Both the position numbers and the translations under genes were made by a program. Source: Acidimicrobiia bacterium (GTDB taxonomy: Bacteria > Actinomycetota > Acidimicrobiia > UBA2766). From it: a stretch of 64,000 nucleotides of DNA. Shown one piece after another: positions 23,301 through 61,190 of the stretch. A model generated the notes under the pieces. The model did not search any database, was not told where the DNA came from, and saw only the letters and a program-made list of their open reading frames with translations. Each line of letters starts with the position of its first letter. Positions within the stretch are counted from its first letter, which is position 1. The stretch covers positions 1-64,000 of the forward strand of contig JADZDR010000004.1 in NCBI GenBank assembly GCA_020850945.1. The letters run 5' to 3'.

Positions 23301-23372
23301 GGCGGCGTAGCCGAGTGGCTCAGGCAGAGGTCTGCAAAACCTTGTACGGCGGTTCGATTCCGCCCGCCGCCT
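23301..23372 (+). tRNA. tRNA-Cys (anticodon GCA)
   Basis: GGCGGCG acceptor pairs with CGCCGCC; anticodon loop CTGCAAA; T-arm GGCGG-TTCGATT-CCGCC; no encoded CCA. Confidence 0.93.
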
Positions 23373-23401
23373 CGAATACGGCAGTCCGGCGGACACGCGC
23401 G

Positions 23402-57571: not shown

Positions 57572-58915
57572 TCATCCCGGACGTGTCTCGGCCGGGGCAT
57601 CCCGCGCGCACCGGAAACCCACGAAGATCTGACGCCGCACGGGGAAGTCCCAGTTCCGAAACGTCGTCCGGCACGCGGTCGGATGCGTCGCCCACGAACC
57701 GCCGCGCAGCACCTTGTACTCGGAACCGAAGAAGACCTCGCTGTACTCCCGGTAGGGTGCCGCCCTGAAGCCGGGATAGGCGGCGAAGTCACTCGACGTC
57801 CACTCCCACACGTCGCCGAGCATCTGCAGGCAGCCATGTGGACTGCCCGGGCCGTCGACGGGATCCGCCGGGAGCGGGCCGAACGGTGACGGAGTGCCGT
57901 CCCACCACAGGTTGGGTCGGGGCTCTCGTGTGTGGGGGCGATCCTGCCCCGGGCCGAGTGACTTGTCCGAGATGCCGTCCCAGGAGGCGGCCAGCTCCCA
58001 TTCCGCCTCGGTGGGGAGTCGCTTGCCTGCCCAGCGGGCGTATGCGTCGGCCTCGTACCAGGAGACGTGCATGACGGGCTCGTCGGGGCGGAGGTCCTCG
58101 ATGTGGCCGAAGCGGTTGCGAAGCCAGCCGCCGCCCCCGTCGCGGAGCCAGGACTGCGGGTGTTCGAGCCTGGCGCGCCGCCGGTGATCCCATCCGATCG
58201 GATCCCACAGTCTCGACTCCGCGTAGCCGCCGTCGTCGACGAAGGCGAGGAAGTCCCCGCACGTGACCGGCGTGACGTCCATGAGAAAGGGGGCGACCGC
58301 CCTCTCGTGAGCGGGCCGTTCGTTGTCGTAGGCACAGGCGACGTCGGCGCCCATCGTGAAGGATCCGCCGTCCACGAATACCTCCTCCCGCGTGGGACGC
58401 GACGTGGGACGAAGCACGCCGGCCTCGGGCGGGAGGTAACCGCGGGCCGGATCGGACTCGCCGAGGAGTTGGAGTGTGGCGAGCATCGTCTCGACATGCT
58501 GCTGCTCGTGCTGCACGACCATGTCGTAGACGTGGGGGACGAGACCCGGCCACGGTGCGAACGTCACAGTGTCGAGCCCGGCGAGCACGTCGAGGACCCG
58601 GCTCCTCACATCGGCCACGTAGGCCCGGGCCTCCGGTGGCGTGAGCAGCGGCAGGGCGGGTCGTTCGGCACGGGGATGCTCGAACGCGTCGTACATGTCG
58701 TCGTATGCGGCGGACGTGGTGGGGATCCCCGCAACTCGGTCGAGGAGCCAGAGCTCCTCGTAGTTGCCGATGTGGGCGAGGTCCCACACGAGCGGGGACA
58801 TGAGTGGCGAGATCTGGCGCGCCAGCGTCGCGTCGTCGAGAGGGGCGAGCAGATCGAGGGTACGGGCCCGGGCCTCCTCGAGCCGGGCGCCGAGAGCGGC
58901 CGTCAGCGCGTCCAC
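57572..58915 (-). CDS. egtB: Ergothioneine biosynthesis sulfoxide synthase EgtB
   Basis: DinB-like [23 protein letters not shown]...[18 protein letters not shown]-sulfatase domain [14 protein letters not shown]...[39 protein letters not shown]. Confidence 0.95.
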
Positions 58916-60105
58916 GCGGGTTCCGCAAGTCGGGCCGCTTCGAGCATCTCGTCGGCCGGGGTCCGGCCCCGCAGCACGAACCTCTCGTGGTAGGCCGCGA
59001 TGTGTGCGGCGAGGTCAGCGGCCGCCGCGATCTCGAGGGCGAGCTCGAAGCACGCCTGCGCGGCCTGCTGCAGTGGAGCGTGGCTGAGGCCGTGGCGGGC
59101 GGCGGCGAGCCACGCGCCGGACACGGGGCGGCAGATCTCACGCACGGTATCTGCCATGTCCTCCGCGCGCACGAGCGTGTCGACGAGGGCGGCCGGGACT
59201 GCCCAGAGGTCGGGGGGTGGCATGTCGATCATGCGCATCTCGAGGCAGCCGCGGGGGCGCACGGGTGGGAACAGGGTCGACAGGTGGCGGAGCACGTCGT
59301 CACGTGAGGGCCGCCGGCTCTCACCCGTGTCGATCCATCCAGCCAGTGTCATGCGCTCTCGCGGTGGTGCACATCCTCCCGCCTCGTCCTGTACGAACAT
59401 GACGCCGGCGTCGAGGGCGTAACGCACCCACGCGTCGGCGGGCGGGCGGGTGTGGTCGGCCGGACGTGTACGGGTGGGGTCGAGCATCGCCCACGTCGCC
59501 TGCCGTGACGACTTCCATCCGGTCGGGGTGCCACACCGGAGAGGCGAGGAGGCGAAGGATGCGACGAGTACCGGGCCGAGCGCATGTGCGACCTGCCACC
59601 GCGAGCGCCCGGTGCCGTTGCCGCTGCTCACGTTCACCTGGGCGGCTGCTGTGTTGCACATCATGTCGAGCCCCCACGACGTGGTGTCGCCTTCCCGTGC
59701 GCGGAAGTAGGCGTCCATGGCCTCGTATCGGGGTGAGGTGTCTACGCGTCGTGGCGGGCGGAGGGGATCCATGCCGCCACCCACGAGCTCGAGGCCGGCC
59801 TCCGCACAGGCGGCGCGGACGAGGCGCATGTCCGCCTCCGTGCGGGAGACAGCGTCACCCACGTGGCTCTCCGGTTGCGAGCTGACCTCGATCTGGCCGC
59901 CCGGTTCGAACGTGAGGGAGCCGGCGAGGGAGGTGAGGATCCCTGCTGTCGCCGACCTGACCTCGGCGGGGGGGACACGCGCGTGCGGGTCGCCGACACG
60001 GCGGACGTGCCATTCGACCTCGATACCCACGAGATCGCGGTGGTCGCGCGGTTCGGCCTCAGCCCGGATCACGTCCGCGGCCGCCTCGACGGTGAGCGGG
60101 GTCAT
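58903..60105 (-). CDS. egtA: Glutamate-cysteine ligase family protein EgtA
   Basis: LVGIEVEWHVRRVGDPHARVP...FEPGGQIEVSSQP...RYEAMDAYF...MMCNTAAAQVNVSSGN. Confidence 0.92.
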   Translation of the reverse strand: MTPLTVEAAADVIRAEAEPRDHRDLVGIEVEWHVRRVGDPHARVPPAEVRSATAGILTSLAGSLTFEPGGQIEVSSQPESHVGDAVSRTEADMRLVRAACAEAGLELVGGGMDPLRPPRRVDTSPRYEAMDAYFRAREGDTTSWGLDMMCNTAAAQVNVSSGNGTGRSRWQVAHALGPVLVASFASSPLRCGTPTGWKSSRQATWAMLDPTRTRPADHTRPPADAWVRYALDAGVMFVQDEAGGCAPPRERMTLAGWIDTGESRRPSRDDVLRHLSTLFPPVRPRGCLEMRMIDMPPPDLWAVPAALVDTLVRAEDMADTVREICRPVSGAWLAAARHGLSHAPLQQAAQACFELALEIAAAADLAAHIAAYHERFVLRGRTPADEMLEAARLAEPAWTR

Positions 60106-60222: not shown

Positions 60223-60308
60223 GGGCGTCTCCTGGTTCGGGCTTCCGACAAGCTAACAGCGTTCCGCCCGCGGCACATGCGAAGTCCTTCCCCCTTTTCC
60301 CCCCCTTC

Positions 60309-60388
60309 TTGCGCGCGAGTCGCGCTGTTGCGCGCGAAACGCGCCCCACGTAGCGCGGATCGCGCGCAAGAGCGCGGTTCGCGCGCAA
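60309..60388. repeat. 80-bp dyad array: two TTGCGCGCGA half-sites then two TCGCGCGCAA, each pair at 19-bp period
   Basis: Half-sites at 60309, 60328 (direct) and 60360, 60379 (inverted), symmetric about 60348/60349. Confidence 0.92.
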
Positions 60389-60417
60389 ATTCGTCGGTCT
60401 TGTCGGTGGATCGGACG

Positions 60418-61173
60418 TCAGTGCAGGGTGCAGCCGTCGACGACGAGGGCGGTCCCGTTCACGAACGACGCCTCGTCCGACGCGAGGAAGGCGATCGTGT
60501 TCGCGACCTCGTCGGGTTCGGCCATGCGGGGGCTTGCCGCGCTCGCCCGGAAGATGAGGTCGGCCTCGGCCCCTTCGGGCGGGATGAAACCGGCGGGGAT
60601 GAGCGGCGTGTTGATGCCGCCGGGGCACACGCAGTTGACCCGGATGCCCTGCTTCGCGTACTCCACGGCGAGGGCCTTGGTGAGGAGGACGACGCCACCC
60701 TTCGACGCGCAGTACGCGGCGGCGTAGGCCTGACCTCGCAATCCCGCGATGGAGGCTGTGTTCACGATGCTCCCACCCACTTCGAGGATGTGGGGCAGCG
60801 CTGCCTGGCACATGAGGAAGGTGCCTGTCAGGTTCACGTCGAGGGCCGTCTGCCACGCCCCGAGCTCGAGGTCGAGCGTATGGGAGAACTTACCGGTCCC
60901 GGCGACGTTGCAGAGGACGTCGAGGTGGCCGAAGGCGGCGACGGCATCGGCCACCGCGGTCCTGCAGGCGTTCTGATCGGCCACGTTCGCCTCACCCGGG
61001 AACGCCCTGCCGCCACCGGCGGAGATCTCCGCAGCCGTCTTCTCGGCGGTCTCGCCGAAGAGGTCGACACATGCAACGGCGGCGCCCTCTCGTGCGAGGA
61101 GCAGGGCCGTCGCCCTGCCGAGTCCGGAGCCGGCACCCGTGACGAGGGCGGTCTTGTCTGTGAAGCGTGCCAT
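60418..61173 (-). CDS. Short-chain dehydrogenase/reductase
   Basis: TALVTGAGSGLGRATALLLARE, NVAGTG, YCASKGGVVLLTKALAVEYAKQGIRVNCVCPGGINTPL. Confidence 0.94.
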   Translation of the reverse strand: MARFTDKTALVTGAGSGLGRATALLLAREGAAVACVDLFGETAEKTAAEISAGGGRAFPGEANVADQNACRTAVADAVAAFGHLDVLCNVAGTGKFSHTLDLELGAWQTALDVNLTGTFLMCQAALPHILEVGGSIVNTASIAGLRGQAYAAAYCASKGGVVLLTKALAVEYAKQGIRVNCVCPGGINTPLIPAGFIPPEGAEADLIFRASAASPRMAEPDEVANTIAFLASDEASFVNGTALVVDGCTLH

Positions 61174-61190
61174 GTCGCAGCGTACCAAGT

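Follow-up and report, generated by a model that had tools for sequence, protein, structure and literature searches.

A four-half-site array beside an egtA-like gene is one copy of a dispersed intergenic palindromic repeat family in an Acidimicrobiia bacterium

In this work we found that a symmetric array of four half-sites, located between an SDR-family dehydrogenase gene and an egtA-like gene, is one copy of a dispersed intergenic palindromic repeat family of about 104 bp, and that among the genomes searched this family is private to one species. The array had drawn attention as a possible regulatory region of the adjacent ergothioneine genes; its genome-wide distribution and the positions at which its copies vary suggest a different role, at the ends of genes.

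In the window, that is, the whole 64-kb stretch of DNA that was analysed, exact matches to TTGCGCGCGA occur at four places only. Half-sites 1 (60309-60318, outer) and 2 (60328-60337, inner) lie 19 bp apart on the plus strand and form the first arm, and half-sites 3 (60360-60369, inner) and 4 (60379-60388, outer) form the second arm as the reverse complement, on the minus strand. With a spacing of N9, N22 and N9 the array measures 80 bp overall, its centre being the 22-bp spacer at 60338-60359; sequence, coordinates and spacing are exactly those given by the first-pass annotation. The whole repeat element extends from 60298 to 60398, where our sequence-only model, R1, scored 86.6 bits (E 3.4e-24) on the plus strand and 84.8 bits on the minus strand. 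The pyrimidine tract that the same annotation placed at about 60289-60309 is real (C/T-rich, 60289-60308, plus strand), and the C-rich flank preceding half-site 1 belongs to the family consensus, CCCCnCCGTTC; the G-rich flank usual in the family after half-site 4 is missing from the window copy. The predicted imperfect hairpin of about 36 bp has its counterpart in an inverted repeat: the two arms, of 36 nt each, are 86% complementary and lie 8 nt apart, and the array folds strongly on both strands (z-scores of -6.8 and -6.5). As had been noted, no T-tract follows it on either strand, and a search of the window against Rfam gave no family match at the array.

The position of the array between the two genes, both on the minus strand, was confirmed. 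The stop codon (60418) of the SDR gene (60418-61188; PF13561, E 6.6e-62) is some 20-30 bp from the element, much closer than the start codon (60105) of the egtA-like glutamate-cysteine ligase gene (58903-60105; PF04107, E 3.1e-51), which is about 190 bp away and is followed by egtB- and egtD-like genes. Elsewhere in the window we identified tandem glycine riboswitch aptamers at 2027-2221 on the plus strand (two RF00504 matches, 72.4 and 53.5 bits) and its sole tRNA gene, a tRNA-Cys (gca) at 23301-23373 on the plus strand.

A scan of the genome (3,911,733 bases in 97 contigs, 98.5% complete) yielded 85 exact half-sites, far above chance, where the reversed control pattern matched 8 times, and the register 0/19/51/70 was found at 29 places distributed over 19 contigs. 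These copies are indel-free, so that their alignment of 108 columns contains no gap, and their arms form an imperfect palindrome as in the window copy, preceded by a C-rich and followed by a G-rich flank. The sequence-only model separated 29 copies above 77 bits (better strand) from one partial copy at 40 bits and from noise below 19 bits. Isolated half-sites outside the copies amounted to 7, of which 5 are inside called genes and 1 corresponds to the partial copy; the latter (L037:2966; contig C27:24215-24286) keeps the left arm and the inner right half-site and has lost the outer right half-site. In two of the six close copy pairs compared below (L040:2985-3146 with L046:1923-2075, and L043:2863-3040 with L059:2965-3143) similarity runs into the adjacent gene ends, the shared adjacent sequence comprising an enoyl-CoA hydratase 3' end and a GATase-like gene start; these pairs are likely to have arisen by duplication or conversion of more than the element itself. 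Clustering along the chromosome is weak: across the unordered contigs, neighbouring copies lie 10 kb or less from each other in 5 cases, where 1.8 would be expected (P 0.026), and the contigs occupied give P 0.09.

A search of 39 relatives, which included one genome of the same genus and two of the same family, found no copy, matches near E 1e-4 being noise, and neither did a search of a sample of 395 further genomes of the class, for which the filters were stricter than for the smaller set. Phage and plasmid collections likewise contained no copy, and an exact long pattern was absent from 85,462 species genomes, a set from which the source genome's own record was possibly left out. In G270, a genome that also belongs to the class, a weak match of 30.9 bits (L112:1510-1592) proved to be a single, different tandem array of CGCGCGCTTCGCG units, which is probably intergenic. 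The same-genus genome, G001, is distant (EgtA 59% identical) and 87% complete; it has conserved the SDR-egtA gene order and lacks the element there and elsewhere; conservation upstream of egtA, a check proposed by the first-pass annotation, did not hold in this genome. At a second, convergent locus this genome presents a clean empty site with no obvious target duplication, and at two further loci checked for empty sites the flanking genes were not found together on one contig.

The genomic context of the copies was analysed with a home-made, codon-usage gene caller, taking as a control 67 gaps from the same loci, each 100 bp or longer and free of the element. None of the 29 copies lies within a gene, every one being intergenic; 15 occupy convergent gaps, 10 tandem gaps and 4 divergent gaps, against 5, 36 and 26 for the controls, a strong enrichment in convergent gaps (15/29 vs 5/67, Fisher 3.7e-6). 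In many copies the element starts 30 bp or less from a stop codon. The neighbour genes encode transporters, DNA ligase, RecR, RmuC, an FtsH-like protease, enoyl-CoA hydratases and others, and in view of these unrelated functions we rejected a regulon. The orientation of the element shows no preference relative to gene direction, which the asymmetry between the arms does not follow, and the asymmetry at its centre varies independently of the outer one. In the broad sense the family shares with REP/BIME elements a multicopy, dispersed occurrence, an extragenic location with a convergent and tandem bias, and an imperfectly palindromic structure.

Conservation among the 29 copies is concentrated in the half-sites. 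Their core, together with the CGCG between half-sites, is almost invariant, and base composition approaches randomness at the centre and at several positions of the spacers: mismatches affect 12 of 1160 cells in core columns and 610 of 1856 in the remaining ones. Six independent close copy pairs differ at the core in 3 of 83 differences, against 31.9 expected (P 7.5e-14), and the four closest pairs in none of 43. The pairing of the arms did not behave in this manner. RNAalifold gave no covariation support on the copies (term +0.16), 76.4% of cells pair in the full mirror structure vs 78.2 +/- 0.6% after shuffling (500 of 500 shuffles at least as high), and the covariation score was 0.078 vs 0.097 +/- 0.008 in the shuffles, implying that the stem is not kept by compensatory changes. 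Position 12, a T in one arm and a C in the other, forms a Watson-Crick pair in none of the 29 copies, against 9.7 expected. As the copies are related, these unpaired positions may reflect an inherited asymmetry of the arms and not selection; even so, the alignment indicates that the arms preserve their sequence rather than their pairing. Together, the near-invariant core, the random spacers and the mirror pairing below chance favour a duplex that is recognized by its sequence over a hairpin formed in RNA.

These results led us to propose, with a confidence that we put at even, that the family is a species-private, BIME-like repeat consisting of a duplex half-site array that is read by a putative protein, marks or insulates gene 3' ends and is kept by selection. 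The four TTGCGCGCGA half-sites, two per inverted arm, would be recognized by a putative sequence-specific DNA-binding protein, and the complex bound at 3' ends and in convergent gaps would act as a mark or an insulator where the transcription unit ends, either by blocking read-through or by pinning the DNA. The family would have spread within this lineage, and selection on the half-sites, as the positions of the substitutions suggest, would keep the present copies intact. We consider it rather improbable, and put it forward tentatively, that an undescribed DNA-binding system, specific to this lineage, uses the 29 arrays as its chromosomal sites and marks transcription-unit ends as an insulator or topological boundary; the spacers would then be kept non-palindromic to avoid extrusion of the long symmetric site or its cutting by SbcCD, of which SbcD is encoded in the genome. 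An identity with the parS/ParB system is not needed, as a separate near-canonical parS with one mismatch is present at L203 (contig C43:5299-5314).

Some of the enterobacterial BIMEs bind IHF, gyrase or DNA polymerase I and aid Rho-dependent termination (PMC2817692). The family described here resembles BIME-1 and BIME-2 in that both are made of dispersed, intergenic, inverted palindromic units. However, its 29 copies share one fixed architecture whereas BIMEs are mosaic clusters, any sequence relation between them would be hypothetical, and binding proteins are known for some BIMEs while the partner is here putative.

A selfish miniature mobile element, similar to a REPIN or a MITE, is a possible, though somewhat unlikely, explanation; the core would then be needed by the copying machinery, and copies would survive at gene 3' ends because there they do least harm. 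The restriction of the family to one lineage, the unrelated neighbour genes and the two loci at which the congener has empty sites would agree with mobility, and the asymmetry common to the arms may be ancestral. The REPs tagged with GTAG or CGTC comprise many families of 20-100 units with an uneven species range, prefer convergent and tandem gaps and often follow a stop codon at a distance of under 20 bp (PMC3733652, where Actinobacteria are not mentioned). Low copy number, uneven species range, gap preference and closeness to stop codons are common to both, but the consensus of the present family contains neither tag, and its 36-nt arms contrast with REP stems of 5-13 bp. With REPINs it shares two conserved ends, inverted and flanking a variable spacer, a size of about 100 bp and an extragenic location; in REPINs, compensatory changes in the stem are frequent (PMC3116915), whereas here they are fewer than chance. 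In addition, no match to the Y1 (RAYT) transposase, PF01797, was found in this 98.5% complete genome, the control search being positive in 5 of 14 genomes, and none of the neighbour genes tested encodes another transposase. The absence of the Y1 transposase, of the head tag and of compensatory stem changes led us to discard a REPIN/RAYT system as defined and RAYT as the mover of the element. Also against mobility, the copies do not decay in series, as one partial copy is followed directly by noise, their cores are intact in close pairs despite diverged spacers, and the empty site lacks an evident target duplication.

A hairpin formed by the RNA at the 3' ends of transcripts, functional from either strand as a bidirectional terminator or as a stem protecting the mRNA, appears doubtful to us. 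Both the placement of the copies at 3' ends and in convergent gaps and the very stable fold on both strands speak for it, and the mean fold of gene 3' ends is -61.5 kcal/mol with the element vs -45.2 without it. Nevertheless, of the features of an intrinsic terminator only the stable G+C-rich hairpin is present, as no TTTT occurs in the 20 nt that flank any of the 29 copies, before or after; the arms, moreover, pair less than shuffled columns do, and 4 copies are located in divergent gaps. The first-pass annotation preferred a regulator array to a simple terminator, and this judgement survives in part: recognition of the duplex is likelier than a conserved hairpin, and the array is not a simple intrinsic terminator; its reading as an egt regulator is not supported. 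A cooperative array of operators that serves the ergothioneine genes alone, which the multi-site build upstream of egtA had suggested, is hardly tenable given that the proposed scan for half-site pairs at 19 bp revealed another 28 intact copies whose neighbour genes are unrelated, that both neighbours point inward in 15 of the 29, leaving in about half of the copies no adjacent gene start to control, that the congener has SDR and egtA in the same order without the element, and that the SDR stop is much the nearer of the two gene boundaries. A striking dyad beside an operon can therefore mislead before the whole genome has been scanned.

In summary, our work adds a repeat family to a group in which, according to a small literature search that returned nothing relevant on the 10-mer or on such repeats in Acidimicrobiia, none had been described so far. 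Furthermore, it suggests that hairpin formation and sequence recognition, which are usually bundled in REP-like repeats, come apart in this family, the sequence being kept and the pairing not. Were these sites read by a host protein, the function of intergenic palindromes at the ends of genes could be addressed through them directly.
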